From the NCBI GenBank assembly GCA_034439655.1, contig JAWXAU010000189.1, positions 1 through 39,467 of the forward strand: a stretch of DNA of 39,467 nt, written 5' to 3'. The translations under genes and the position numbers were made by a program. Below the pieces are notes generated by a model. That model made no database searches and was not told where the DNA came from. It saw only the letters and a program-made list of their open reading frames with translations. Source of the stretch: Bacteroidota bacterium (lineage in GTDB: Bacteria; Bacteroidota; Bacteroidia; UKL13-3). Positions 9,338-28,066 of the stretch are shown in pieces (the stretch's first letter is position 1; each line of letters begins with the position of its first letter).

Positions 9338-9550
9338 ATATATAGTATAATTTTAAGTGAAGGTTTAAAAAATATTCAAAACTATTTCAGGCATTTTTAT
9401 ACATATTAATAGTTGCTGTTAAACCAAGTTATTTCGTAAGGGTTTGATTATTAACTAAGTAAGAAATAGCAAGCTACTATAATATTGCAAAATTAAGCTA
9501 TTATTCCAAAGCCAAATTATAAAGCGTATTAAAAAACATAGAATTAGTGC

Positions 9551-13825: not shown

Positions 13826-13911
13826 TTTGATTATACTTTCTGTTTTTTATCTTCGGCATGATGCTCGCCGCGGCTAACAGATGACGTTGAGTTTGCAATG
13901 ACTTTATATTA

Positions 13912-14838
13912 TTATTTAATTTTTTTAGTTTGAGAATGCCAAATTTCAGAATTGCCTGCTGTATTAACACTTCTATGAACAAAAGCCAAAACTTTACAAT
14001 TATTTATATTCCAACTTTTATTAAGATGAACGGCTATTTGTTTGCGATAAACTCTGCCACTTATCCAATTTGTTTTAAGATAGGTTCCATATTGCGAAGT
14101 CACAAAGATTCTAGCCAAATTATCATGAACATAAAATGTATCTATATCTCCATTATTATCTTGCGGATTAACAATACTGTCTTCCAAAATGATTAATGTT
14201 AAATAAACAGAGTCAGATAGAGGTTGCGTGGCTGTTATATAACATGTTAATTTTAAAGAATCATTATTGGCAATTAATACATTGTCAATATCAATATTTA
14301 AAGGTGAAGTTTGATTGTTTATCAGTTGAGCATCGAGCGTTGAACTCCAATCGTTCACACTATTGGTTATTAATAGATTTTTAGTTTTATTCAAAACTCT
14401 ATCTAGTCCTATTGAGGGTAAATTTTTGTTTGTCCCGAATATTGACAATAAATCAGCAGCTTCTCTTAACTGAAAATCCTGAAAACCTGCAATTGTATTA
14501 TATGGTCTTGTTAAAGCGTTTCCGAGCGGATGCATGGATAATATATTCATTCTTCCATTGTGAGAAGCAGCTAATCCTACAGCAGCAACATGTGCATCAG
14601 GGCAGTTTGCACATCGAACTCCAGTATAGTCTTCTAATAATGAATTTCTATATTGTGCTGCGGGAACATTATTAGTTATATAAGTAGAATCTGATCCAGA
14701 ATATAAATTAAAAAAAACCAATGGTGGCTCTTCTTTGCATGATGATAAAATAGAAACTAATAAAAATATATATAATGTTATTGGATTTATAGTTTTTGTT
14801 CTTTTAATTTTAAGGAGCGTTGCTTTTTTCATCATCAT
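13912..14838 (-). CDS. Omp28-related lipoprotein with thioredoxin-like CxxC
   Basis: This 308-residue protein has a lysine-rich start, hydrophobic core and lipobox LSSC (Cys34), so a lipoprotein is likely. Residues about 60-170 match the Omp28 family: LLEDYTGVRCANCPDAH with Cys76 and Cys79, then a HPLGNALTRPY stretch and a LPSIGLDR cis-Pro region, a thioredoxin-like fold. The rest is a beta-sandwich of unknown role. Its start is 5 bp from the stop of the DUF6029 gene, and Omp28-like and DUF6029 genes are often neighbours in this phylum, suggesting joint function at the outer membrane. Confidence 0.85.
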   Translation of the reverse strand: MMMKKATLLKIKRTKTINPITLYIFLLVSILSSCKEEPPLVFFNLYSGSDSTYITNNVPAAQYRNSLLEDYTGVRCANCPDAHVAAVGLAASHNGRMNILSMHPLGNALTRPYNTIAGFQDFQLREAADLLSIFGTNKNLPSIGLDRVLNKTKNLLITNSVNDWSSTLDAQLINNQTSPLNIDIDNVLIANNDSLKLTCYITATQPLSDSVYLTLIILEDSIVNPQDNNGDIDTFYVHDNLARIFVTSQYGTYLKTNWISGRVYRKQIAVHLNKSWNINNCKVLAFVHRSVNTAGNSEIWHSQTKKIK

Positions 14839-14843
14839 ATTTA

Positions 14844-16508
14844 TTAAAAATTAGTCGACATGGTAAATTTTACGCCACTGAAGGCAGGCTCAACACGACA
14901 AACACCACCTGTGCAGTTCATGCCGGCAACTTGTTTTACATAGGCCAATGTAAATCGTGTAGCATGGTGGGTATATGCACCAAAAAATGTATAATAATGT
15001 GCTTTTCCTGGCGGAATAAGAGAGGATGGGGCTCTCCAAGGTTTTATATTATACATATCACCCACGGCTAAACTAAAATGGGGTGCCATGGTCCATTCGG
15101 CCAGTATATTTATAAAGCTACCCAAGTCTTGTTTGGTGCTTAGGTATTGTGACTCCAAACGTATTGCATGTTGTTTGTTTTTAATTTTGAATTTATACAA
15201 TGCCTCACCAAAAGGGGTGGTGGCATGCACATAGGGAAAATCAGTACCTTTTATTTCGTAACGCTGTTGGTTGTAACCTATATTTTGTATACCCAACATC
15301 AATTTAAATTTCTTGCTAAACTCATGTGATGCCTCCAAATATAATTCGTGAAACAAATCACTGTTATCAAGTTTTATTACTTTGGATGCATTGACGTTTA
15401 TAATAGTTTTTAATTTGTTTTTACGTTTTATACTTACTGTAAAATCAGCTTGGAAATCTCTTTCACCCAATTCCTGCACCACGGCATTATATCTAGCTAG
15501 CAAACGATAAGTGTTTTGGCGTGTCACTGATGTGAGGTAATTCATCTGACCAAAAAGATTTTGTTCCAATGGTGAGGTACGTGCTGGGAAGCTATCAATT
15601 TGTTTATACTGTGCATTAAATCCTAAACCAATTAACGCACCTTTCTTTGTTTTAATAGTTTTGGTATATGATAAGGAACCAAATAGTACTTTGCCCTTCC
15701 TATAAACTAATGGAAATGGAGAATTAATAAAATCTTTAACGGCCTCATGTGTTTTGCCATTATATTCTGCATATATGGTGAAATCTTTAATACAAATAGT
15801 ATTATAGAAACTAAAAAGATACACATTGTATTTGGGGTAAAATTGATTGATACCAGGTTGGTCGTTCACAATACTCACAATTGCAGCCATTGTATTATTG
15901 TCAATAGTCCTATTTAATATGGATGCCCCAGGTTCCCAACTAAAAGTTTCCTTTTTGTTGCGAATTGCATATTCTACATTGGCACCACGCATGTTTTGGT
16001 CACGCACGCCAAATCTAAATTTTTGTCTACCAGTAAATACTTTTACTTTGAAATCTTTAAATGGATTATACTTCACTCTCACACCTTGTATGGCATAATC
16101 CAAACCGAGGGTACGGTCTTCAAACGCACGAAATATAGTACCTGTAGCAAACTGTTCGTAAAAATATCCTCCAGTTATTTGCAAATTATCTATATCTTTA
16201 CTAATGCTCCAATAGCCTAAACCACTGCCAGTATATGCTGTGGATGGATCATATAAATTGCTGTTATTAAACAAATCGAAACGGGCTTGAAGGGTAAATC
16301 CTTTTTGAGTATAGTTTGTACTAAGCCATGCTTCCGTTCCCACCAATTGTTTTTGGTATAATTCGGTAGTAGCACCTATACTGCTGTCCAGCATAAAAAA
16401 CTGTGTGTTGGTCGAAAAATTTCCGTTAAAGGTACCTTTGTCGTCTTGAGCTTGCATGATGTTTACTGCAAATAAAAGTACAATACTTATTCTTAATTTT
16501 AACTTCAT
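14844..16508 (-). CDS. DUF6029 family outer-membrane beta-barrel protein
   Basis: This 554-residue exported protein has a signal peptide ending near MQA-Q (residue 20). It consists of amphipathic beta strands separated by short turns and ends in a Phe (MSTNF), as outer-membrane barrels do. The N-terminal part (GNFSTNTQFF, FTLQARFDLFNN, FYEQFATGTIFRAFEDRTLGLDYAIQGV, RGANVEYAI) matches DUF6029 as I know it. Function is unknown. It overlaps the PorV-like gene stop by four bases (ATGA) and is followed after 5 bp by the Omp28-like gene, so the three envelope proteins are one translational unit. Confidence 0.85.
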   Translation of the reverse strand: MKLKLRISIVLLFAVNIMQAQDDKGTFNGNFSTNTQFFMLDSSIGATTELYQKQLVGTEAWLSTNYTQKGFTLQARFDLFNNSNLYDPSTAYTGSGLGYWSISKDIDNLQITGGYFYEQFATGTIFRAFEDRTLGLDYAIQGVRVKYNPFKDFKVKVFTGRQKFRFGVRDQNMRGANVEYAIRNKKETFSWEPGASILNRTIDNNTMAAIVSIVNDQPGINQFYPKYNVYLFSFYNTICIKDFTIYAEYNGKTHEAVKDFINSPFPLVYRKGKVLFGSLSYTKTIKTKKGALIGLGFNAQYKQIDSFPARTSPLEQNLFGQMNYLTSVTRQNTYRLLARYNAVVQELGERDFQADFTVSIKRKNKLKTIINVNASKVIKLDNSDLFHELYLEASHEFSKKFKLMLGIQNIGYNQQRYEIKGTDFPYVHATTPFGEALYKFKIKNKQHAIRLESQYLSTKQDLGSFINILAEWTMAPHFSLAVGDMYNIKPWRAPSSLIPPGKAHYYTFFGAYTHHATRFTLAYVKQVAGMNCTGGVCRVEPAFSGVKFTMSTNF

Positions 16509-17377
16509 TCTTTTGGTTTTTCTATTTGCTCTTTTGGAGTTGTTGTTTTTTCTTTTAATTCTTTGTCAAAGGTAAACCTAAAACTTAATTGTGTGCTTAA
16601 TCCTAAATTAATATCATATACGGAGGCGATGTCTAAATTTATTTTGTGGTATTTGTACCCAAAACCAAAAGTGCCATTGAATACACCCGTGCTTACCCCC
16701 ATCCTGAATATATATTTGCTGTTGGGCTGATATGAAATACCGCCCCTAAAAAGGAAACCATGATTTAAATCCTTTACACCTTCGGCATTAATTCGTACTT
16801 TGGTAGATGCTTTATATCCCAATGCCAGCGTAGCCGAACCGGGTAAACGGTTATTGGTTATATCTGATTGTTTCACTCTATTTGGGTTACTCACATGGAA
16901 TGCCCCCGTAAAATCTTTGTTGATGGTATACATAATTCCTGCATCGAAAAACATATTATTATAAGTGCCGTTCTGTGTGCCCATATAAGTTTGCAGAAAA
17001 TTTAATTTAATACCGCCCGTAAAGCCCGGAGCCATTTTTTTTGAAACGCCTAAACCATATAAGGTGGTGTTCAAATCGCTATTGCCCATTTTGCTAAAAC
17101 CAATACCCACAGCATAAGAAGCAAATGGAAATACTACTGCCGCCCCGCCACGGTTGAGGTCTTTAATAGCAAATTTGTTTTCGGAATATACACCTAACTG
17201 CACGGTTGAAAAATTTGACATACCTGCTATATTGTTGTAGAATGACCATACGTCGGTGCTGAGGCGTGAAGTGCCGCCCATGCCTGCCGCTGCTGCTCCC
17301 ACAGGGTTTTGTATTTGGGCCGATGATAGATTTGTATATAATAACAAACCTGTTAACATGAAAAAATTCCTTAGCAC
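16505..17377 (-). CDS. PorV/FadL-like outer-membrane barrel protein
   Basis: This 290-residue protein has a signal peptide ending SSA-Q. The mature start NPVGAAAAGMGGTSRLSTDVWSFYNNIAGMS is typical of PorV/PorQ-like T9SS-associated and FadL-like barrels in Bacteroidota (the AAGMGG and NNIAG motifs). A charged tail (KELKEKTTTPKEQIEKPKE) follows the last strand, which is unusual for a barrel. It is not necessarily PorV itself. I keep the GTG at 17377 because it supplies the basic n-region. A TATATTTGC promoter-like box at 17390-17382 would instead favour ATG 17359, which leaves a very short signal peptide. It lies 23 bp after the Sir2 gene. Confidence 0.75.
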   Translation of the reverse strand: MLRNFFMLTGLLLYTNLSSAQIQNPVGAAAAGMGGTSRLSTDVWSFYNNIAGMSNFSTVQLGVYSENKFAIKDLNRGGAAVVFPFASYAVGIGFSKMGNSDLNTTLYGLGVSKKMAPGFTGGIKLNFLQTYMGTQNGTYNNMFFDAGIMYTINKDFTGAFHVSNPNRVKQSDITNNRLPGSATLALGYKASTKVRINAEGVKDLNHGFLFRGGISYQPNSKYIFRMGVSTGVFNGTFGFGYKYHKINLDIASVYDINLGLSTQLSFRFTFDKELKEKTTTPKEQIEKPKE

Positions 17378-17400
17378 GTTTGCAAATATATCTATAAATT

Positions 17401-18081
17401 TTATAAAGCCAATTCTTTTATCAATTTTGGCAAGCCCAAAGCAGCGGTATTCTCTATCACTTTTATATTGTTGCCCGAACTAACAGGAGGATAGGGGTCT
17501 ACCAAATATATAGTGGCTTTTCGTGGGGCATAATCCAGCAAACCTGCTGCGGGATAAACTTGCAGCGAGGTGCCAACTACAATTACGATATCTGCTTTTT
17601 GTACTACCATAGCGGCTTTATTTATCATGGGAACCGCTTCGCCAAACCATACAATATGGGGCCTTAACTGTGAATTTTTTTCGCAGTTGTCTCCCGGTTC
17701 TATATTTTTGTAGCCAATATCATATAGTAGTGATTCGTCAATTGTGCTTCGGGCTTTCACTATTTCGCCATGCAAATGTATAATATTGGTAGAGCCCGCT
17801 CGTTCATGCAGGTCGTCAATGTTTTGGGTAATGATGGTCACTTCTGCAATTTCCTGCAATTGTGCCAATGCCTTGTGGCCCGCATTGGGTTTGGCCTTGC
17901 CTATTTCTTGCCTCCGAAGGTTATAAAACTCAAGCACCATTTTATAATCATGTTGCCAGCCTTCGGGCGATGCAACTTCCATCACCTTATACCCATTCCA
18001 AAGCCCGTTATTGCCCCTAAAAGTTTGAAGCCCGCTTTCGGCACTTATGCCTGCACCTGTTAGCACAACGATATGCTTCAT
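17401..18081 (-). CDS. Sir2-family NAD-dependent deacylase (SIRT5-like), zinc site lost
   Basis: This 226-residue sirtuin removes acyl groups from lysines using NAD. Seen motifs are GAGIS (9-13), TQNIDDLHERAG (from 85), catalytic His104 in HLHGE, and GTSLQVYPAA near the NAD site. Tyr53 and Arg56 form the YxxR pair that in SIRT5 and CobB recognises succinyl/malonyl groups, so desuccinylase activity is likely. The four cysteines of the zinc ribbon are absent: the region after HGE contains only Cys133. I place the start at ATG 18081 rather than the TTG just before it. It lies 9 bp after the MBL-rhodanese gene and is presumably cotranscribed with it. Confidence 0.93.
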   Translation of the reverse strand: MKHIVVLTGAGISAESGLQTFRGNNGLWNGYKVMEVASPEGWQHDYKMVLEFYNLRRQEIGKAKPNAGHKALAQLQEIAEVTIITQNIDDLHERAGSTNIIHLHGEIVKARSTIDESLLYDIGYKNIEPGDNCEKNSQLRPHIVWFGEAVPMINKAAMVVQKADIVIVVGTSLQVYPAAGLLDYAPRKATIYLVDPYPPVSSGNNIKVIENTAALGLPKLIKELAL

Positions 18082-18090
18082 CAATAAAAA

Positions 18091-19470
18091 TTAATTTGAT
18101 GCTACAATATCAAGTCCTGTGGTTTTAATTTTATCAAAGCCACCCAAAACATTTTTTACTTTATCAATTCCTTTCGATTTGAGCCAAGCGGCTGCAATCA
18201 TACTGCGGTAGCCTCCTGCACAATGTATATAATAAGTTTTTTCTTTGTTGAGGGTCGAGATATTCTTATCCATATCTGATAAGTTGAAATGGGTAGCGTG
18301 ACCCAAATGTCCATTGTCCCATTCACCAGGCTTGCGAACGTCGAGTACATTTAGTTCATCAAAATTATAATCAATCGCAAATTCTTCGGGTTCGATAGAG
18401 ATGACCATATCATAACGTTTACCACTTTCTTCCCATGCTTTAAAACCACCTTCTAAATAGCCTTGTATATTGTCGAAACCCACACGGGCAAGACGGGTAG
18501 CAGATTCTTCTTCTTTGCCAGGCTCACAAACTATAATAATACTTTGGTGGATATTGAGTAAGGTTGCCGCCCAAATAGCATACTGTCCGTTAAGGCCAAA
18601 GTTATATGCTTTGGGAACAAAACCCAACTCAAATTGATCAGGAATTCTGGTATCTATTATATTGACTCCTGTTCTCGACAATTCTATAAATTGCTCCACA
18701 GACAAAGGTTTCAAAGCTTTTGATATTATATCTGCAAGAGGTTCGTATCCGTTTTTATTCAATTTCGCATCCTCAAAAAAGTAGGCAGGTGCAGGAGAAA
18801 TTCCAGTAGTAATTGTTTTGATGAATTCCTCCTTACTCATCGGTTGCAAAGCATAATTACCTAGCTTTTGTGTGCCAATGGTTGAGAAAGTTTCTTTGCC
18901 AATATTTTTGCCGCAGGCCGAGCCAGGTCCATGTCCGGGATAGTGAATTACATCATCGTTCAAAGGCATCAATTTGTTATGCAAGGAATCGTACATCATG
19001 CCAGCCAAATCTTCGGGTTTCATTAATCCATCCAATAAATCGGGTCGGCCCACATCGCCTACAAATAAAGTATCGCCTGTAAATACGGCATGTTCTTTTC
19101 CGTTTTCATCATATAATAAATAACATGAAGATTCAGGCGTATGGCCGGGTGTGTGTAATACTTTTATATTGAGTTTGCCTAGTGGAAGAATTTCACCATC
19201 AGTAGCTACATGAACCGGGAAATTAGTTTTGGTAGTAGGGCCATATATAATAGTTGCCCCAGTTTCTTTGGCTAGGTCTATATGTCCGCTCACAAAATCG
19301 GCATGGAAATGTGTTTCAAAAATATATTTGATGGCGGCACCGCGTTCATTGGCCAACTTCAGATAGGCAGCAACGTCACGGATTGGGTCAATGATGGCAG
19401 CCTCGCCTTCGCTCTCAATATAATAAGCGGCTTGTGCAAGGCAATTGGTATATAATTGTTCTATAAACAT
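18091..19470 (-). CDS. Metallo-beta-lactamase fold protein with two rhodanese domains (persulfide dioxygenase-rhodanese)
   Basis: This 459-residue protein combines an ETHE1-like metallo-beta-lactamase domain (about 1-240) with two rhodanese domains (about 255-350 and 365-455). THFHADFVSGH gives metal ligands His54, His56 and Asp58, and later TPGHTPES and FTGDTLFVGDVGRPDL supply the rest. Rhodanese 1 has a Cys at the loop VCEPGKE, and rhodanese 2 has the canonical HCAGGYRS active loop. The layout matches CstB/BLH-type enzymes that oxidise persulfides to sulfite and thiosulfate in sulfide detoxification. A TATTTTTGC -7 box at 19493-19485 overlaps the more distal TTG (19488), so ATG 19470 is the real start. 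Confidence 0.92.
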   Translation of the reverse strand: MFIEQLYTNCLAQAAYYIESEGEAAIIDPIRDVAAYLKLANERGAAIKYIFETHFHADFVSGHIDLAKETGATIIYGPTTKTNFPVHVATDGEILPLGKLNIKVLHTPGHTPESSCYLLYDENGKEHAVFTGDTLFVGDVGRPDLLDGLMKPEDLAGMMYDSLHNKLMPLNDDVIHYPGHGPGSACGKNIGKETFSTIGTQKLGNYALQPMSKEEFIKTITTGISPAPAYFFEDAKLNKNGYEPLADIISKALKPLSVEQFIELSRTGVNIIDTRIPDQFELGFVPKAYNFGLNGQYAIWAATLLNIHQSIIIVCEPGKEEESATRLARVGFDNIQGYLEGGFKAWEESGKRYDMVISIEPEEFAIDYNFDELNVLDVRKPGEWDNGHLGHATHFNLSDMDKNISTLNKEKTYYIHCAGGYRSMIAAAWLKSKGIDKVKNVLGGFDKIKTTGLDIVASN

Positions 19471-19484
19471 GAGGGTAATTTTGT

Positions 19485-19493
19485 GCAAAAATA
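19485..19493 (-). promoter_or_regulatory. -7 box upstream of the MBL-rhodanese gene
   Basis: TATTTTTGC on the minus strand is an exact TAnnTTTGC match 15 bases before the ATG. No TTG is seen at the right distance. It probably drives the series of seven co-oriented genes down to yggS. Confidence 0.55.
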
Positions 19494-19558
19494 ATAAATT
19501 TTAGGGAAGAATTTTATATTGATTTAATAACGATTGAGCAGTATGTTTGTTTGCTAGA

Positions 19559-19590
19559 TTGCAATCGTCAAAAAAATAAAATTAATTTTG
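19559..19590 (+). promoter_or_regulatory. Promoter of the LamG pseudogene
   Basis: TTG at 19559-19561 and TAATTTTG at 19583-19590 with 21 bases between fit the Bacteroidota consensus exactly. A hairpin (TATGCTA 19619-19625 / TAGCATA 19631-19637) follows in the leader just before the ATG at 19648. The promoter outlived the function of its gene. Confidence 0.6.
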
Positions 19591-19647
19591 TAGGCACCCA
19601 TTTCCTAAAAATTAAAGTTATGCTATGCATTAGCATATATTAAAAAT

Positions 19648-20042
19648 ATGAAAAAATACTTACACCTTATTATTATTACTTTGTTGTTTTCAAACGTAAA
19701 AGTATTAAGTCAAATTTCGAGTAACGCACTTAATTTTGATGGCCTTGCTGATTATGTATCGGCACCATTGACTGGAGTATTTAAAAATATTGAAACGAAT
19801 GAGGTCACGATAGAAGCCTGGATAAAACCCGATACAAATAAATTCTCAAGAATATTATTTGCCCAACTTGATACAAACGATTTTATAAATATATCAATTG
19901 CAAATAACAATGAAATTGTGTTTTATGTTTATTCTGGAGGGAATAATAGTATATCAACTATTGATACGGTGAGGTAAGGCCAATGGTCGCATATTACAGT
20001 TACTTGGGATGGTGATAATAATGAAGCGGTAATATATATAAT
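19648..20042 (+). pseudogene. Broken LamG/concanavalin-like surface protein gene
   Basis: The frame starts with a signal peptide (about residues 1-22) and a LamG-type domain: ALNFDGLADYV, VTIEAWIKPDT and NNEIVFYVYSGG. A TAA at 19975-19977 interrupts it, yet the same frame continues GQWSHITVTWDGDNNEAVIYI, which is exactly the next conserved LamG strand pair. It is therefore an in-frame nonsense mutation in a once longer gene, not a natural end. The continuation then runs into the 170-bp palindromic element at 20038 and is lost. The complete gene was probably a large secreted adhesin or glycan-binding protein with a C-terminal sorting domain. Confidence 0.85.
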
Positions 20043-20207
20043 ACCAATTCTTAAACTAAATTAGTTCTCCGCCTGTAGCGGATTTAGTTTGTAGAATGGT
20101 AATGTCGAATTACATCCCGAATGCCCCGCTTAATCCCGATAATTATCGGGATGCGGGGGGATTAGTCCCTTTCTTTTGGACTATTATATATTGAGTTTCG
20201 GTATTAT
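20038..20207. mobile_element. 170-bp MITE-like palindromic element with 8-bp terminal inverted repeats
   Basis: ATAATACC at 20038-20045 and GGTATTAT at 20200-20207 are exact inverted ends. Inside are three structures: an imperfect inverted repeat 20041-20103 (AAACTAAAT 20053-20061 with CCGC 20069-20072 against GCGG 20078-20081 and ATTTAGTTT 20082-20090), a GC-rich hairpin 20124-20158 built around the perfect 20-nt palindrome 20133-20152, and a TAGTCC/GGACTA stem near 20164-20184. No coding capacity. The LamG relic ends inside its left end and the nucleotidyltransferase ends inside its right end, so it marks an insertion or a deletion joint. I cannot name the family and see no clear target-site duplication. 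Confidence 0.6.
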
Positions 20208-20339
20208 CCAAATATCTAAATCGCTGGTAGTCCTTCCATAACCATGAAATATTACAGCATAACCACCTGCTATTATAAAATCAACTTTGTTTTGTTGAAA
20301 TTTAAAAAGGATTTCCTCGAAAACATCAGAAAATTTCAT
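20184..20339 (-). pseudogene. Nucleotidyltransferase (AbiEii/DUF6036-like), truncated after 51 residues
   Basis: Translation from ATG 20339 gives 51 residues: a helical start (FSDVFEEILFKFQQNKV), then DFIIAGGYAVIFHGYGRTTSDLDIWI, which is the glycine-rich motif and the paired Asp active site (DLD) of small nucleotidyltransferases related to AbiEii and DUF6036. Immediately after this motif the frame enters the 170-bp element and stops at 20184. The remaining two-thirds of the protein is missing, so it is inactive as a transferase. The start overlaps the stop of the upstream partner as ATGA, showing that the two were a coupled operon, as in toxin-antitoxin-like pairs. Confidence 0.8.
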
Positions 20340-20608
20340 GTATTGGGTTCTTGTAAAGTTATTAATTTAGGGATGGGCACCCACTTCCCATTTGGTAAAA
20401 GATATTCGTTATATATTATTCTACGAAGTTGTTCAGCATTAAACATCCTTTCGTCGTACGATGTCATAGCCCTTTCTTTAGCCACATATTCGTTTTCTTC
20501 TTCAATAGTAGAGAATATACGAATAGTCTTCTTCATGCCAATTTTATATATAGCTGTAGGTTCATTCACCTGCATTTTTGTTTTTTTTGGCTGTGGCTTG
20601 TCTTTCAT
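20336..20608 (-). CDS. Small partner protein of the truncated nucleotidyltransferase (antitoxin-like position)
   Basis: This 90-residue protein has no named family that I can assign. After a basic N-terminus (MKDKPQPKKTK) comes MQVNEPTAIY, then IRIFSTIEEENEYVAKERAMTSYDERMFNAEQLRRIIY, a helical charged region, and a short C-terminus. ATG 20608 is preferred over the GTG at 20629 because the GTG lies only 13 bases from the -7 box at 20650-20642. The stop overlaps the nucleotidyltransferase start (ATGA). Small genes of this kind with a charged helix commonly precede DUF6036-type nucleotidyltransferases; an antitoxin role is inference only. It appears intact although its partner is destroyed. Confidence 0.65.
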   Translation of the reverse strand: MKDKPQPKKTKMQVNEPTAIYKIGMKKTIRIFSTIEEENEYVAKERAMTSYDERMFNAEQLRRIIYNEYLLPNGKWVPIPKLITLQEPNT

Positions 20609-20641
20609 GTCACTATAATAAAAGTTCACTATTTATCAATT

Positions 20642-20650
20642 GCAAATTTA
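20642..20650 (-). promoter_or_regulatory. -7 box of the nucleotidyltransferase operon
   Basis: TAAATTTGC on the minus strand, 33 bases before ATG 20608, is a perfect TAnnTTTGC match. The same nonamer precedes the decayed aspartic-protease operon at 21557-21549. Confidence 0.5.
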
Positions 20651-20679
20651 AAATGTTTTCTACAAAAAAAGAGAATTTA

Positions 20680-20884
20680 TATAATATATTTTGCCACTCA
20701 ACTTTTATTAAATTTTTTGCAACAAAATTATCACATGCAAGAAATTATTGAAGCCGCTTGGCAAGACCTTGCACTATTAAAAGATAGCACCACTTTAGCA
20801 ACCATCAACGAAGTTATAGAACAATTGGACAAAGGCAAAGTCTGCGTGGCAGAGCCTATGGACAATTGTGACTGGCAAGTGAAT
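20680..20884 (+). repeat. Left copy of the duplicated dapD 5' region
   Basis: These 205 bases match 21647-21853 (promoter-proximal leader plus the first 50 codons of dapD). The leaders differ by a few indels (55 versus 57 bases before the ATG). Similarity ends abruptly after the codons for DWQVN, at the stop codon of the convergent aspartic-protease relic. Confidence 0.95.
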
Positions 20885-20887
20885 TAA
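20735..20887 (+). pseudogene. dapD: Truncated dapD copy (first 50 codons)
   Basis: ATG 20735 opens the same N-terminus as the intact DapD at 21704 (MQEIIEAAWQD...) and stops at TAA 20885-20887 after 50 residues, where foreign sequence begins. Codons 1-30 differ from the intact copy only at codons 12-13. In codons 31-50, twelve of twenty codons differ and seven of those are synonymous. The synonymous differences mean this piece once evolved as part of a functional gene, perhaps a different dapD allele. It lacks the hexapeptide-repeat catalytic domain and is not functional. Confidence 0.92.
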
Positions 20888-21272
20888 GAAATAGATATAG
20901 AATTTGTAACTGTGTCAATGCAGAATCTAGTACTCTCTAAAAAGTCCAATCCAAGTAATCCATTATAATCTGAAAAAATTCCGTGAGCTTGGAAGTCGTA
21001 CACTTGAATTTGGAATTCGTTTTTTTGTATTCCAAGAGAAGAAAAACTGCCTACCTCAAAAACCTCTGTTTCTATTGTGCCACTTGCAGTTTCAATTGCA
21101 ACCACCCCAATATTATCTTTTAGGTCATATCCAATAAATACAAAGCATTACTGTAGATAGTTGTATTGGTTGCTCCTGTATCAAAAATCATTTTTAATTC
21201 AAACTTGCTATCTATTTCTATACTAATAATAATTAGCCCACTTTCAGGCTCTCGTTTGAAAGGGAAAGTCAT
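20884..21272 (-). pseudogene. Retropepsin-like aspartic protease gene, frameshifted
   Basis: ATG 21272 gives a 50-residue piece with the active-site motif FDTGATNT (Asp31) and stops at 21122-21120. One base out of frame the protein continues as GYDLKDNIGVVAIETASGTIETEVF, then a central strand region, and the late motif GLLGLDFL that closes the retropepsin fold, ending at 20884. Joined, this is a complete single-domain retropepsin-like protease of about 125 residues with one frameshift near 21125-21135. No slippery heptamer suggests programmed shifting, and the upstream partner is also broken, so it is a pseudogene. The substrate of the original enzyme is unknown. The gene overlaps its partner as TAATG. 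Confidence 0.85.
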
Positions 21273-21526
21273 TATTTGATACGATTAAAAATTCCTGTAA
21301 TCTTTCTAGTTGGTTTGAAAGTGCCTGTATAAATCAGCGTGATTTTATTAAAGGCTGAAGTTTTGGCTCTTCCAATATAACAAACTTCTTTCTTATCCTT
21401 GCTATGATAAATTGGGATGCCAGATACAAGATCAATTTTGCTTTCATCCATAATAGGCTCGCACACAAAAACCCATTAGTTAGGATAAAGTTTTTTGATG
21501 TCGGTAATGTTTAATGATTGTCCCAT
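21272..21526 (-). pseudogene. Small conserved partner of the aspartic protease, nonsense mutation
   Basis: ATG 21526 begins MGQSLNITDIKKLYPN, followed by TAA (21478-21476) and, in the same frame, WVFVCEPIMDESKIDLVSG and the rest through the terminal TAA at 21274-21272. Reading through the one stop gives 84 residues with a Leu-Val-Ser-Gly-Ile-Pro-Ile-Tyr region and a VCYIGRAK segment. I know no function. Small proteins of this type often sit directly before a retropepsin-like gene, as here (overlap TAATG). The intact reading frame on both sides of the single stop shows recent inactivation. Confidence 0.75.
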
Positions 21527-21548
21527 TTTATTGTACAAGTTTACTACT

Positions 21549-21557
21549 GCAAATTTA
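21549..21557 (-). promoter_or_regulatory. -7 box of the aspartic-protease operon
   Basis: TAAATTTGC on the minus strand lies 22 bases before ATG 21526 and matches the TAnnTTTGC consensus. No clear TTG partner was found. Between this box and the right dapD repeat (21558-21646) I see nothing else. Confidence 0.5.
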
Positions 21558-21646
21558 AGATTTTTCTTCTTATTTATTGAAATAATTCCTGTCTAAATTT
21601 GTAATTATAATCTTTTGATTTCCCTTATTCTAAAATCATAAATCCT

Positions 21647-21853
21647 TATAATATATTTTGCCACTCAACTTTTATTATATTATTTTGCAACAAAATTTAT
21701 CACATGCAAGAAATTATTGAAGCCGCTTGGCAAGACCGTGAACTATTAAAAGATAGCACCACTTTAGCAACCATCAACGAAGTTATAGAACAATTAGATA
21801 AAGGCAAGCTCCGCGTAGCTCAACCCATGGGCAATGGCGACTGGCAAGTAAAT
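21647..21853 (+). repeat. Right copy of the duplicated dapD 5' region
   Basis: Leader and first 50 codons of the intact dapD, matching 20680-20884. The leader with its TATATTTTGCC promoter-like box is present in both copies, so the insertion left dapD with a full upstream region. The offset between copies is about 967 bp. Confidence 0.95.
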
Positions 21854-22513
21854 GAGTGGGTAAAGAAGGCGGTAATTTTATATTTTCCTACCCGCGAAAT
21901 GGTGACTACCTATGCCGGCCCGCTGGAGTTTTATGATAAGATGGCTTTAAAAAGTAATTATAAAGAATTGGGAATTAGAGTTGTACCCCATGCGGTTGCA
22001 CGCTATGGAAGTTATATATCGCCAGGGGTCATTTTAATGCCTTCCTATGTAAATATCGGAGCCTATATAGCTGAAGGTACCATGGTAGATACCTGGGCTA
22101 CTGTGGGCTCGTGTGCCCAAATAGGTAAGCACGTGCATTTGAGCGGTGGCGTAGGAATTGGTGGCGTATTGGAGCCTGTGCAGGCAGCACCAGTTATTAT
22201 AGAAGATCATGCATTTATTGGTTCACGTTGTATTGTGGTTGAAGGAGTGAGGGTGGGCGAGGCCGCAGTATTGGGAGCAGGTGTTACTATTACAATGTCA
22301 ACCAAAATTATAGATGTTACGGGCGATACTCCTATCGAACACAAAGGTTATGTGCCGGCCCGTTCGGTAGTGATTCCGGGAAGCTATACCAAAAAATTTG
22401 CCGCCGGCGATTTTCAAGTTCCTTGTGCTCTCATCATTGGCCAACGTAAGCCCAGCACCGATTTGAAAACTTCTTTGAATGATGCTTTGCGTGAGTATAA
22501 TGTAGCGGTGTAA
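21704..22513 (+). CDS. dapD: 2,3,4,5-tetrahydropyridine-2,6-dicarboxylate N-succinyltransferase
   Basis: This 269-residue DapD succinylates tetrahydrodipicolinate in lysine and meso-diaminopimelate synthesis, so it supplies peptidoglycan precursors. The N-terminal helical domain (about 1-95) is followed by a left-handed beta helix of hexapeptide repeats: VILMPSYVNIGAYI, GTMVDTWATVGSCAQIG, HLSGGVGIGGVLEP, VIIEDHAFIGSRCIVVEGVRVG. The C-terminal YVPARSVVIPGS and LIIGQRKPSTDLKTSLNDALREY complete a full-length enzyme. Its first 50 codons and leader also occur as a truncated copy 967 bp upstream, with a decayed protease operon between, so the gene stayed intact through an insertion at its 5' end. 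Confidence 0.97.
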   Translation: MQEIIEAAWQDRELLKDSTTLATINEVIEQLDKGKLRVAQPMGNGDWQVNEWVKKAVILYFPTREMVTTYAGPLEFYDKMALKSNYKELGIRVVPHAVARYGSYISPGVILMPSYVNIGAYIAEGTMVDTWATVGSCAQIGKHVHLSGGVGIGGVLEPVQAAPVIIEDHAFIGSRCIVVEGVRVGEAAVLGAGVTITMSTKIIDVTGDTPIEHKGYVPARSVVIPGSYTKKFAAGDFQVPCALIIGQRKPSTDLKTSLNDALREYNVAV

Positions 22514-22529
22514 AGGGATAAGAAACTAG

Positions 22530-22585
22530 AAATAAGAAATAAGGAATAAGGAATAAGGAGCTTACGCCGAATGGCCCTTATTCCT
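22530..22585 (+). terminator. Heptamer repeat and hairpin after dapD
   Basis: Four tandem 7-mers (AAATAAG x2, GAATAAG x2) occupy 22530-22557. The last arm AGGAATAAGG (22549-22558) pairs exactly with CCTTATTCCT (22576-22585), and the flanking GAAACTAG / CTAGTTCC extend the stem. There is no good T tract, so it is a repeat-derived hairpin that may end or stabilise the dapD transcript. Confidence 0.45.
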
Positions 22586-22669
22586 CCTAGTTCCTGTCGC
22601 AAAATTTTACTTTCCAAATACCGCATTTGTCCTTATTTTTACACCTTTAATCACTAACTATTTTTAAAG

Positions 22670-25600
22670 ATGAGAAATACTTTTAGGGCTTGTGCTCTTA
22701 CACTGATGATCTCCTTGGCATTACAAGGATTTTCGCAAAACACTACATCAACATTTAATTACAAAACCACCGAGGTGGTAATGAACGAGGTTTGGGGAGT
22801 TCCGCAGTTTGTGAAATTCGATGACAATAGCCGCCCAGCAGTTGAACAATTAAAATCGTATTTAGAGAATGAATATGCCTTTGTTCTCAAATTATTGAAA
22901 TCAGAAACTGATGATTTTGGTTGGACACATTATCGCTACTGCCAAACGCAGAATGGATATGAAGTGGCTAATACCATGCTGATATTTCATACAATTAGCG
23001 GGCAAGTAATTTCGTATAATGGAGAAGTATATCCCATAGCAAATGCTGAAACCAAATATGATGTTAATGAAAAAGATGCGTTGAAATTCGCCACACAATA
23101 CTTAGGTGCAAAAGTATATAAATGGCAATTGCCCGACCAAGAAGCTTTTATTAAAATAGAACAAGAAGACCCCAATGCTACTTTTTTGCCCAAAGGTGAA
23201 TTAGTATATAAATCTGTTGGTGATATAAATAAACAAACTATCTTCAAACTTTGTTGGAAATTTAATATATACGCCCACGAACCTTTATTACGCAAAAACA
23301 TATATATAGATGCAAATACCAGCAATACAGTAGGCGAAGAAGATTTGCTACATACAGGCGATGCAAAAGGAACAGCAGTAACCAAGTATGTGGGTACCCA
23401 CACCATTACTACCGACAGTACAGCAACAGAATTTCGTCTGCGTGAAAAAGGAGGCAGGGGAAATGGTGTAGAAACCTATAATTTGCAACAAGGTACTTCC
23501 TATACAAATACTGATTTTACGGATGTCGATAATAATTGGAACAATAAAAATTCAAATAAAGATGAAGTAGCTACTGACGCACATTTAGGTGCTGAAACTA
23601 CGTATGACTATTTTAAGAAAAACCACAATAGAAATAGTTATAATAATACGGGTGGAAAATTATTGAGCTATATACATTATAGTACGCTGTATGATAATGC
23701 TTTTTGGGACGGGCAGCGAATGACTTATGGTGATGGGAAGGTATTGTCGCCACTTACTTGTCTTGATATTTGTGGACATGAACTCACCCATGGTGTTACT
23801 GGCAACTCTGCAAAACTGGTATACTCATACGAGTCTGGTGCATTGAACGAATCCTTTAGTGATATATTTGGCACTTTGGTTGAGTTTTATTTGAAAGGTA
23901 GTGGCGGAAATTATTTGATAGGTGAAGATGCCGGAGGAGGTCAACCATTGCGTAGCATGAAAAATCCTACTTTTTATGGTAATCCCGCTGCCTATAAAGA
24001 CAGTTATTGGATTACAGGGCCGCAGGACAATGGCGGAGTGCATTATAATAGCGGCGTGCAAAACCATTGGTTTTATATAATAAGCGAAGGTGATTCAGAT
24101 TCAAACTTTTTAGGTAAGGTATATCATGTTAAAGGAATCGGGCAAACCAAGGCGGCTAAAATTGCCTATAGAAATTTAACCTATTATTTAACACCGAATT
24201 CTAATTACGCAGCTTCACGTTTATATTCTATTCAGGCAGCAAAAGACTTATATGGTGCTTGTTCCGACGAAGTGAAGCAGGTAACCAATGCTTGGTATGC
24301 AGTAAATGTTGGGAAAGCTTATGATACACTTATAAAAACACAATTTTCTGCTAATAAAACGAAGTTTTGCAATGCGAAAGATACAGTATATTTTACCAAT
24401 ACCAGTGCTTTGTTTGCTTCTTCCAGGTGGGATTTTGGCGATGGCGTTACCTCAAACCTAGATGACCCCAAACATGTATATAATAAATATGGCACCTTTA
24501 ATGTGAAATTATATATCACAGGATGTACTGGGGGTGCTGATAGTTTACTGATAAATCAATATATAACAATTGATTCTACAATGCTTTCGTGCAAATCTGT
24601 TTCACTGCCTATCAGCGGTATAGGTACAACACAAACCAATTGCTTCGGCTCACTTAAGGATAATGGAGGCGATTTAAACTATGGCAATAATACGGATGGA
24701 AGTATCACTATTTCACCCTCCAATGCTTCCGTAGTTACGCTTACTTTTAATAGTTTCAATTTTGCCGCAGGTGATTATTTGAGTATATTTGATGGACCCA
24801 ATACTTCTGGTAATTTGATTGGACGATATACGGGATCAAGTTTACCCAATGGGGGAAGTATTACATCAATGGGTGGTTCCATTACTATTCGCCAAACTAC
24901 TGATAACTCAGGAGTCTCTACTGGTTTTGAATTGAATTGGCTATGTTATGCAAAAGTTCCCAATGATGTGGGCATATTAAAAATACATAATACTTTAGGA
25001 AGGGAGAATACTTCAATCTCTTTATCAAGCACCGAAAAAATAAAAGTATTGGTCAAAAATTTTGGAAGTAATCAGGTAAGTAATATTCCAATATCATATA
25101 ATATAAATGGATTGGGCAATATATACGATACCGTTAAGACATCAATGAATTCAGGTGATACACTCACCTTCACTTTTGCCAAAACAGCCAATCTAGCTGC
25201 AGGGGCATATTACCAAATAGCTTCTCAAACAAATTTTGCCAGTGATACAGCAAGTAATAATGACCAATGCATAAAAATAATAAAAAACATAAAAAATGCC
25301 CCAACCTCTTTACCCTACTTTCAAGGATTTGAGACTGACGGCAATATATATACGCAACAAAATACAATTGGTTTGGACAGTACGGATGAGTTTGATTTCT
25401 CTACCAGCAGACCCGATAACGGTAGATTGAGATTGGCTGCTGGTGCAGGTTTCGCCAATAGTGGAACACATGCCGCAACGATGGATCAGTTCCCTGCCCA
25501 AAGTGGTAATGGACCTTATGCTATTAATTATCTCACACTTACTTTGAACCTGAGTAAGTATAACACCAACGAAAAAATATATTTAGATTTTGCGTATCAA

Positions 25601-26914
25601 AATCATGGTGAAGAACAAAATAGCAATGATAAAGTATGGGTGCGTGGGAATGATAAAAGCACTTGGTTGCAGATATATGATTTATATGCAAATCAACCCC
25701 AGCAGGATAATTACAAATCGGTGCAAGACCAAGATATTAGCACGTTGCTAAAATCAAATGGCCAATCGTTCTCCAGTAGTTTTCAAATTCGTTTCGGGCA
25801 AGAAGATAATAATGGAGCTGCACCAGGGCAAGCAGGAGACGGTTATACCTTTGATGATATTACTATATGGAAAGAAACTTTCGACCTCAGCACAACCAAT
25901 ATACAACACCCAACAAGCGGCTGTAATATAGGAACGCAACCAGTTAAAATTACACTTACTAATAAGGGTGGTCCAATTACTAACCTCACTGTGCCTATTA
26001 GCTATAAAGTAAATGGCGGAAGTGCAGTTACCGAGAATGCGACGGTATCCATTGGTAAAGGCCAAAGTGCTACATACACTTTTACCCAAACAATTAATTT
26101 TGCCGCTATTGGTAATTATGATATAGTTTCTTATGTAAGTTGGTCAAAAGATTCCGACAGAACTAATGATACTTTTAATGTTTCTATATATAATGCTGCA
26201 CCAATTGTAAAACCAACTGTTACTATCCAGGGCGATACTACGTTTTGTCAAGGCGACAGTGCTAAGCTTACAGTCAGTGGTGGTTACACGGATTATAGTT
26301 GGAGCAACAATGCAGGACTAACGCCAACTGTTGCCGTAAAAGGTACAGGAATTTATATTTGTACGGTTAAAAATCAATATGGTTGTGCGGCTCAATCCAG
26401 CCCGATAAAAATTAGTGTTTCTCCATTGCCCAAAGCGGGCTATGGATGGAATGCCCCTGTGCCAAACCTAACAGTGACTTTTAAAAATCAAAGCTCGTAT
26501 GCCAGCAGTTATAAGTGGGATTTTGGAGATGGTGATTCAAGCATTGTTTCTTCGCCAGTGCATACATTTCCTGCTTATGGAAAGTATGCAGTAAAACTAA
26601 CCGCCTATAATAATTGCGGTTCCGATTTTTCTTTGTTCGATGTAAATGTGAACCAGAAATTGGGTCTTGAATTGACACCAAAACAAAGCATTATAGAATT
26701 GTGGCCAAATCCTACCAGTAACGAGTTGTACCTGAAAGGAATTAACGTACCTAGCAAAATAAATATTATAGACGTACAGGGCAAAATTGTTAAAACGCAA
26801 ATAATTTATAACAATCAAGTTATAATGGTCGAAAATTTGCCAGCAGGAATTTATATGGCCCAAATATTTTTAGAAAATATGAAGGTCGTAAATTTAAAAT
26901 TTGTGAAAGAGTAG
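22670..26914 (+). CDS. Secreted M4 (thermolysin-like) metalloprotease with adhesion modules and T9SS sorting domain
   Basis: This 1414-residue protein has a signal peptide (about 1-22) and a propeptide to about 230. The M4 peptidase domain (about 235-545) has HELTH zinc motif at His370-His374 with Glu371 as general base, third ligand Glu394 in GALNESFSD, and His458 in GVHYNSG as the transition-state residue. Downstream modules read in order: PKD (about 557-630), CUB-like (644-761), CARDB-like (764-874), MAM/jelly-roll-like (877-1070), a second CARDB-like (1077-1174), Ig-like (1181-1254) and PKD (1254-1327). The last 80 residues (WPNPTSNELYLKG...LPAGIYMAQ) are a type A T9SS sorting domain. It is predicted to be exported through the type IX system to digest extracellular protein. 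Confidence 0.95.
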   Translation: MRNTFRACALTLMISLALQGFSQNTTSTFNYKTTEVVMNEVWGVPQFVKFDDNSRPAVEQLKSYLENEYAFVLKLLKSETDDFGWTHYRYCQTQNGYEVANTMLIFHTISGQVISYNGEVYPIANAETKYDVNEKDALKFATQYLGAKVYKWQLPDQEAFIKIEQEDPNATFLPKGELVYKSVGDINKQTIFKLCWKFNIYAHEPLLRKNIYIDANTSNTVGEEDLLHTGDAKGTAVTKYVGTHTITTDSTATEFRLREKGGRGNGVETYNLQQGTSYTNTDFTDVDNNWNNKNSNKDEVATDAHLGAETTYDYFKKNHNRNSYNNTGGKLLSYIHYSTLYDNAFWDGQRMTYGDGKVLSPLTCLDICGHELTHGVTGNSAKLVYSYESGALNESFSDIFGTLVEFYLKGSGGNYLIGEDAGGGQPLRSMKNPTFYGNPAAYKDSYWITGPQDNGGVHYNSGVQNHWFYIISEGDSDSNFLGKVYHVKGIGQTKAAKIAYRNLTYYLTPNSNYAASRLYSIQAAKDLYGACSDEVKQVTNAWYAVNVGKAYDTLIKTQFSANKTKFCNAKDTVYFTNTSALFASSRWDFGDGVTSNLDDPKHVYNKYGTFNVKLYITGCTGGADSLLINQYITIDSTMLSCKSVSLPISGIGTTQTNCFGSLKDNGGDLNYGNNTDGSITISPSNASVVTLTFNSFNFAAGDYLSIFDGPNTSGNLIGRYTGSSLPNGGSITSMGGSITIRQTTDNSGVSTGFELNWLCYAKVPNDVGILKIHNTLGRENTSISLSSTEKIKVLVKNFGSNQVSNIPISYNINGLGNIYDTVKTSMNSGDTLTFTFAKTANLAAGAYYQIASQTNFASDTASNNDQCIKIIKNIKNAPTSLPYFQGFETDGNIYTQQNTIGLDSTDEFDFSTSRPDNGRLRLAAGAGFANSGTHAATMDQFPAQSGNGPYAINYLTLTLNLSKYNTNEKIYLDFAYQNHGEEQNSNDKVWVRGNDKSTWLQIYDLYANQPQQDNYKSVQDQDISTLLKSNGQSFSSSFQIRFGQEDNNGAAPGQAGDGYTFDDITIWKETFDLSTTNIQHPTSGCNIGTQPVKITLTNKGGPITNLTVPISYKVNGGSAVTENATVSIGKGQSATYTFTQTINFAAIGNYDIVSYVSWSKDSDRTNDTFNVSIYNAAPIVKPTVTIQGDTTFCQGDSAKLTVSGGYTDYSWSNNAGLTPTVAVKGTGIYICTVKNQYGCAAQSSPIKISVSPLPKAGYGWNAPVPNLTVTFKNQSSYASSYKWDFGDGDSSIVSSPVHTFPAYGKYAVKLTAYNNCGSDFSLFDVNVNQKLGLELTPKQSIIELWPNPTSNELYLKGINVPSKINIIDVQGKIVKTQIIYNNQVIMVENLPAGIYMAQIFLENMKVVNLKFVKE

Positions 26915-26929
26915 TATTATATATTTAGT

Positions 26930-28066
26930 TTGTTGAAAAAAAGGATAGTTATAGTTTTTATTCTGATTGGGGCTTTTGCCGGGCTGTCTTTTATTAAAAG
27001 TCCATCGGCAAAATACCGGGGGCGGACTTTTAAAATTGCGTTGTTCTTACCATTCTGCTCTGGCATTAGCGATGCTGAATTCAAACGTAAAAAATTAGCA
27101 CTGGTACAAAAAGCCGCAATAGAATATTATGAAGGCATATTAGTGGCTTTAGATTCGTTGGAAAAGTTGGGTTTTGAATGTGAAATGAAAGTATATGATA
27201 CCCAAAAAGATTCACTCACCACGCTTCGTATTTTGAACAAGCCAGAAATAAAAGATATGGATTTCATAATAGGTCCCATGTTCAAGGAAGGGATTAATAT
27301 GCTGGCAGGCTATTGTTTGCAAAATAAAATATACCATCTCTCACCCGTAGTGTCAGTTGTATCATCTGTGAATACGTCTTATTTAATCAATACCAATACC
27401 GATATAGTTAACTTTGATAAAAGCATCACCGATTTTTGGGTAAGAGATTTTGATACTGCCAATATATATATCATACATGATGGTAAAAAAAGTATGAAAA
27501 CCTTGGCCGAAAAACTACGCAACAAACCCGATTCCATAAATATGTTGCATGTAAAAGTGTTGAACGCAGTCCCATATTTAAGAACGGAAGATATTATATC
27601 AACGCCCGAAAAACCAGCTTTGCTATTAATACTTAGTAATGATGAAAATTGGGTGAACCGACAAATGAAAAATGTGCGTGAGCTCGAAAATTTCACCTTG
27701 ATGGGTTTAGAAAGTTGGCTCGATTTTAAAAGCCCCGATTTTGATAAGTGGACATTATACCACTGCATGTTTGCCACCACTCACCATGTAAACTTGGCAA
27801 ATGGCAAAGGTTTCCGAGAATTGTTCCGAGCAAAGTATTATACTGAGCCCACGGAGTATTGCTACAAAGGTTTCGACCAAATGTTGTTTATAGGAAATCT
27901 ATACAATACATACGGTGCCAACTGGACAGACCATTTAGATGAAGCCTACCAAGCACTACACAATAATTTTGGATTAGATCAAGACTCCCTAACAGGACAA
28001 TGGATCAACACAGAAATAAAGATTCTGCAATTGGAGGAGAATGGTTTGATGCAGGTGTATAGGTAG
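26930..28066 (+). CDS. Periplasmic-binding-protein-like (ABC substrate-binding type) protein
   Basis: This 378-residue protein begins with a membrane anchor or signal (VIVFILIGAFAGLSFI). The body is type I periplasmic-binding fold: FKIALFLPFCSG, a YYEGILVALDSLEKLGFECEMKVYDTQKD segment, DMDFIIGPMFKEGINMLAGYC, and the YKGFDQMLFIGNLY end. This is the Leu/Ile/Val-binding-like domain that Bacteroidota often carry on LysM or cell-wall proteins; no LysM repeat or transporter genes are seen here. No ATG lies near the N-terminus. The start is TTG at 26930 (or 26933), 15 bp after the protease gene, so the two are likely cotranscribed. Ligand unknown. Confidence 0.75.
   Translation: MLKKRIVIVFILIGAFAGLSFIKSPSAKYRGRTFKIALFLPFCSGISDAEFKRKKLALVQKAAIEYYEGILVALDSLEKLGFECEMKVYDTQKDSLTTLRILNKPEIKDMDFIIGPMFKEGINMLAGYCLQNKIYHLSPVVSVVSSVNTSYLINTNTDIVNFDKSITDFWVRDFDTANIYIIHDGKKSMKTLAEKLRNKPDSINMLHVKVLNAVPYLRTEDIISTPEKPALLLILSNDENWVNRQMKNVRELENFTLMGLESWLDFKSPDFDKWTLYHCMFATTHHVNLANGKGFRELFRAKYYTEPTEYCYKGFDQMLFIGNLYNTYGANWTDHLDEAYQALHNNFGLDQDSLTGQWINTEIKILQLEENGLMQVYR

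Follow-up and report, generated by a model that had tools for sequence, protein, structure and literature searches.

A MITE with a TWA target duplication in hundreds of copies in a Bacteroidota genome, and a probable deletion between two of its copies

The 162-bp element at positions 20042-20203 of the window, which is the whole 39,467-nucleotide stretch of DNA analyzed here and all of contig C189 of a 3.50-Mb Bacteroidota genome assembled in 205 contigs (G000), is a MITE, with borders shared among its copies, terminal inverted repeats, a duplicated TWA target and no internal transposase. The best explanation of its position between two truncated genes, and a probable one, is that the MITE multiplied in trans and that two direct copies recombined at this locus, deleting the intervening DNA. 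The features of the locus are as follows.

19501..21683, no strand: G000-specific 2.2-kb island with the element and the gene fragments; the congener G002 has about 530 bp here
19648..20041, plus strand: 5' part of a secreted LamG-domain gene, a pseudogene (Laminin_G_3 E = 2.5e-15; translation)
20039..20041, no strand: left flanking target triplet TAA (TWA flank in nearly all copies)
20042..20203, plus strand: MITE copy, 162 bp, termini TACC...GGTA (borders from the 70-copy alignment)
20042..20065, plus strand: left terminal inverted repeat, 24 nt, imperfect (terminal pattern with 208 genome matches)
20042..20101, plus strand: hairpin 1, a 60-nt stem-loop with its own TACC...GGTA ends (arms 20042-20061 and 20082-20101; folds)
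20124..20158, plus strand: hairpin 2, nested palindromes CCCCGC[...ATCCCGATAATTATCGGGAT]GCGGGG (module varying between size classes)
20163..20183, plus strand: hairpin 3, TAGTCC...GGACTA (folds)
20180..20203, plus strand: right terminal inverted repeat, 24 nt, imperfect (terminal pattern with 229 genome matches)
20204..20206, no strand: right flanking target triplet TTA, unlike the left one (TWA flank in nearly all copies)
20204..20339, minus strand: 5' part (about 45 codons) of a nucleotidyltransferase gene (translation; paralogue match)

The LamG gene reads rightwards and the nucleotidyltransferase gene leftwards, both into the element, and both have lost their 3' ends. The LamG frame matches positions 4-97 of the 151 in the Pfam Laminin_G_3 profile and reaches residue 131 at position 20040, at the element border, with an earlier in-frame stop at 19975-19977. 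The truncated nucleotidyltransferase is 43% identical over 41 residues to a full-length paralogue of 149 aa in G000. For neither gene was a missing remainder found beyond the opposite border of the element. The profile, the translations and the paralogue show that the truncations of both frames at the element borders, as described in the initial annotation, are real. Comparison with G002 showed that window positions 13905-19500 match C10:70750-76369 and positions 21684-28065 match C10:76902-83274, the flanks of the island having the same place and order in both genomes and being collinear over tens of kb. Neither the LamG nor the nucleotidyltransferase gene is present at this locus in the congeners G001 and G002.

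The element had originally been delimited as a 170-bp unit at 20038-20207. The element itself is real and recurs elsewhere in the genome, with borders that coincide among the copies; the alignment places them at 20042 and 20203, within 4 bp of the earlier positions. Of the supposedly exact 8-bp inverted ends, 4 bp belong to the real terminus, and the rest is the TAA/TTA flank pair, which is reverse-complementary because the two triplets mismatch, together with one further base. The outer 24 nt of the element are complementary at 17 of 24 positions in the consensus, and the outer 28 nt are 71% complementary in the window copy. The three internal hairpins described earlier were confirmed, and the fold of the element is far more stable than those of shuffled sequences, with z = -5.5 as DNA and z = -6.1 and -4.4 for RNA of the two strands. 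Structural comparison of 29 copies showed that paired hairpin positions are half as variable as unpaired ones, with no compensatory changes in the hairpins. Rfam covariance models gave no match to positions 19500-22700 at E values up to 1.

With up to three mismatches allowed, G000 contains 229 matches to the right-end pattern, 208 to the left-end pattern and none to the reversed control patterns. The genome thus holds hundreds of copies, and the family makes up roughly 1% of it. Borders and flanks were listed for 57, later 70, distinct copies; the borders are common to all 70, and nearly all are flanked by TWA. Among the 62 copies that have a TWA at each end, the two triplets are equal in 48, where chance alone would give 52.5% (p = 5e-5), and TWA is a 3-bp target-site duplication. 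One copy (G000 C128:14936-15068, triplets TAA/TAA) interrupts a gene whose G002 counterpart is continuous at the corresponding site (C7 near 119.0 kb), where the flanks are directly joined; this is the one clean empty site in G002. The left flanks are enriched in A and T at -6 and -5, with no mirror image in the right flanks, so insertion appears to be oriented relative to the target. Full-length copies measure 117-180 bp and contain no transposase gene. Consistent with the non-autonomous element proposed in the initial annotation, the family has hundreds of copies with no gene within the 162 bp.

The MITE was not detected in 40 relatives, including both congeners, and scanning 84,980 species genomes for exact occurrences of the right end, with records of G000 itself left out, gave no match. 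A single viral match was rejected, as it falls within a protein-coding gene from another organism and has only 20 bp in common. The burst appears to be confined to one species, being absent from the two congeners.

The proposal that the element reshapes the genome is supported by the comparison of about 739 kb of G000, mostly stretches chosen around copies, with 1.2 Mb of G002. Copies lie at all five large breakpoints relative to G002, including both ends of one inversion. A copy was present in 5 of 5 synteny breakpoints versus 15 of 82 collinear gaps (Fisher p = 4e-4); restricted to collinear gaps of at least 400 bp, the comparison gives p = 0.046, in stretches that had been picked around copies. 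Two of the breakpoints are the reciprocal ends of one inversion of ~26 kb in G002 coordinates and carry copies in opposite orientation: on G000 C205, G002 C12:29868 is joined to 56800 reversed, and on G000 C50, position 57060 of the same G002 contig is joined to 31576. Another breakpoint, at G000 C112:4287, joins points about 296 kb apart; the query region for its partner junction is absent from G000. The G001 contigs end at the inversion locus, and this genome is too fragmented there to polarize the inversion. The breakpoint junctions and the intergenic sites of G002 share too little homology for the exchange to be located within the element. Exchange between inverted copies most likely inverted chromosome segments outside the window locus in G000. 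The triplets are equal at four of the five large breakpoints and mismatched at some collinear copies, such as the one at C67:10347. Mismatched triplets were thus rejected as a marker of large rearrangements, and the TAA/TTA mismatch of the window copy alone proves nothing.

Together with the cut genes, the mismatch nevertheless fits a deletion between two copies in the window. The element inserts at TWA and duplicates those 3 bp, and would have been multiplied by a transposase supplied in trans. One copy, flanked by TAA, would have sat in the LamG gene, and a second copy of the same orientation, flanked by TTA, in the convergent nucleotidyltransferase gene. Recombination between these direct copies would have removed the 3' ends of both genes and the DNA between them, leaving a single hybrid copy that keeps the left flank of the first copy and the right flank of the second, as its left triplet TAA and right triplet TTA would suggest. 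Judged from the sequence comparisons, such a deletion is the most likely origin of the junction. The collinearity with G002 at large scale indicates that any deletion was local. The deletion via two element copies put forward in the initial annotation thus agrees with the cut genes and the mismatched triplets, but no genome with the undeleted ancestral arrangement was found, G001 and G002 being without both genes here.

An ordinary insertion splits one gene and cannot give a pattern in which two unrelated convergent genes both lose their 3' ends. The MITE could instead have landed at an existing junction of LamG and nucleotidyltransferase debris, with the TAA/TTA difference arising by later mutation. 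The island does contain much gene debris, such as the second dapD 5' end and the LamG frame with its earlier stop, and the absence of both genes from the locus in the congeners also agrees with such a history. However, both homologies stop only a few bases short of the element, and a near-exact strike on the pre-existing junction would be needed. A mutated triplet is also unlikely at about 4% divergence, at which we estimate ~2 A/T mismatches in the 62 copies compared with the 14 observed. We therefore regard this course of events as unlikely. A rearrangement other than a deletion, either an inversion or the import of the island as a unit, is slightly less likely again; it would have joined two copies and left the missing gene halves elsewhere, next to another copy. 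The copies at the reciprocal inversion ends show that distant copies do exchange. However, both sides of the island keep their G002 place and order, and the only other nucleotidyltransferase match in G000, from a search that covered the retained 5' part, is the distinct 43%-identical paralogue.

A misjoin of short reads inside the repeat would produce the same junction as an artefact. The repeat does confuse the assembler, since many of the 205 contigs end inside a copy. However, a misjoin would almost certainly link distant loci, whereas here the sequence to the left and to the right of the element follows G002 for tens of kb with only 2.2 kb between, which makes an assembly error very improbable. 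Should the deletion between direct copies and the inversion between inverted copies be confirmed with closed genomes, the rate at which recombination between repeats of about 160 bp deletes genes and inverts segments would become measurable, with the TWA triplets serving as tags of the exchanged flanks.

A transposase with matching ends, to which the initial annotation had pointed, was not found among the hits to three DDE families (PF01609, PF13586 and PF13359) in G000, an assembly fragmented at repeats; none of these hits has TACC ends. The match on C83 belongs to another IS that is inserted into a MITE copy. This IS (G000 C83:1-3027, 297-1900) has the termini CCTATCGTGTGGACACA and an interrupted transposase frame. 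The match on C95, a fragment that we take to be IS1182-like, adjoins an unrelated MITE copy. The matches on C98, C19 and C168 are IS5-like fragments with the ends TAGACCTCTTTCA rather than TACC, and the termini of the MITE do not match those of an IS5-family element, as those of an IS5-derived MITE would. The mobilizer may be absent from the fragmented assembly or already lost. IS5-family elements of the IS1031 type target TNA and PIF/Harbinger elements target TWA, both being DDE transposons, and the 3-bp TWA duplication of the present MITE matches this type of target.

The copies fall into size classes of about 120, 133, 145 and 162 bp. The classes differ by the palindromes at or near the apex of the middle hairpin, with none in the first, ATCCCGAAAGCATTCGGGAT in the second, CCCCGC...GCGGGG in the third and ATCCCGATAATTATCGGGAT inside the latter in the fourth. 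Copies of the 162-bp class have a mean identity of 96% to their consensus, and the window copy is 96.3% identical to it. Such palindromes are likewise found in G000 outside the element, and G002, which is without the element, has three of the four kinds. The family could conceivably grow by nesting, with the MITE taking up into its hairpin loops small palindromes that disperse independently, although we hold this to be doubtful. Palindrome capture, if true, would be an unusual evolutionary route for a mobile element. A palindrome within a palindrome was also seen outside the MITE on G000 C205, around position 9478 of the stretch read (GTCCCGATAAG[TCCCGAAAGCTTTCGGGA]CTTATCGGGAC), and resembles the pattern of the size classes. 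Composite copies, in which a 57-nt left hairpin is linked by AGAATGTTATACC to a full element, were observed at G000 C41:7940-8119 and C4:33062-33149. Their occurrence at separate loci with equal TWA triplets suggests that the composite was mobilized as a whole.

Prokaryotic MITEs occur in dozens to hundreds of copies with size variants and are hotspots of homologous recombination (PMC10969869). The present element resembles members such as Correia, ERIC, QMITE2 and Chunjie in being short and non-coding with terminal inverted repeats and a flanking direct repeat, and in occurring in many copies, including truncated ones and size variants (PMC10969869). However, its sequence, target and host are all unlike theirs. 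A term search of the text of PMC10969869 showed no mention of a Bacteroidota MITE family. MITE239, MITE464, MITE700 and BrickBuilt of Porphyromonas gingivalis are likewise Bacteroidota MITEs, with termini matching the IS5 family (GAGAC..., ACGT...) and about 10-20 copies per genome (PMC4596501), whereas the present MITE has the termini TACC...GGTA and more than 200 copies. In comparison with REP palindromes, which are associated with RAYT transposases (in congeners), the MITE shares the form of dispersed intergenic palindromic hairpins, but has the terminal inverted repeats and target duplication that REPs are without. The G000 element adds to the known kind of MITE, and its ladder of nested-palindrome size classes is unusual. 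It represents a clear case of a MITE burst in an uncultured Bacteroidota lineage, with copies at every large synteny breakpoint examined.

Further repeats were observed around the window locus. A tandem duplication comprising the dapD 5' end and the region upstream of it lies at 20641-20884 and 21651-21853; the two copies are about 970 bp apart and 89% identical, and the first dapD copy ends prematurely at about 20886. The nearest named relatives of the dapD product are from Bacteroidota, with 78-79% amino-acid identity, which places the uncultured host in this phylum. Between the two copies, at 20890-21273 on the minus strand, fragments resembling a retropepsin-type aspartyl protease were read by eye. 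Directly after dapD, at 22512-22596, lies a short hairpin-containing repeat, AATAAGGAATAAGG...CCTTATTCC, with dozens of matches in G001 and several in G002, which is another dispersed repeat family of the genus. The corresponding intergenic site in G001 (C227:9000-11991, about 2430-2992) has many TGTTGGTGTTTTCACCAACA palindromes, and the end of that contig carries the start of an apparent REP-associated (RAYT-type) transposase gene.
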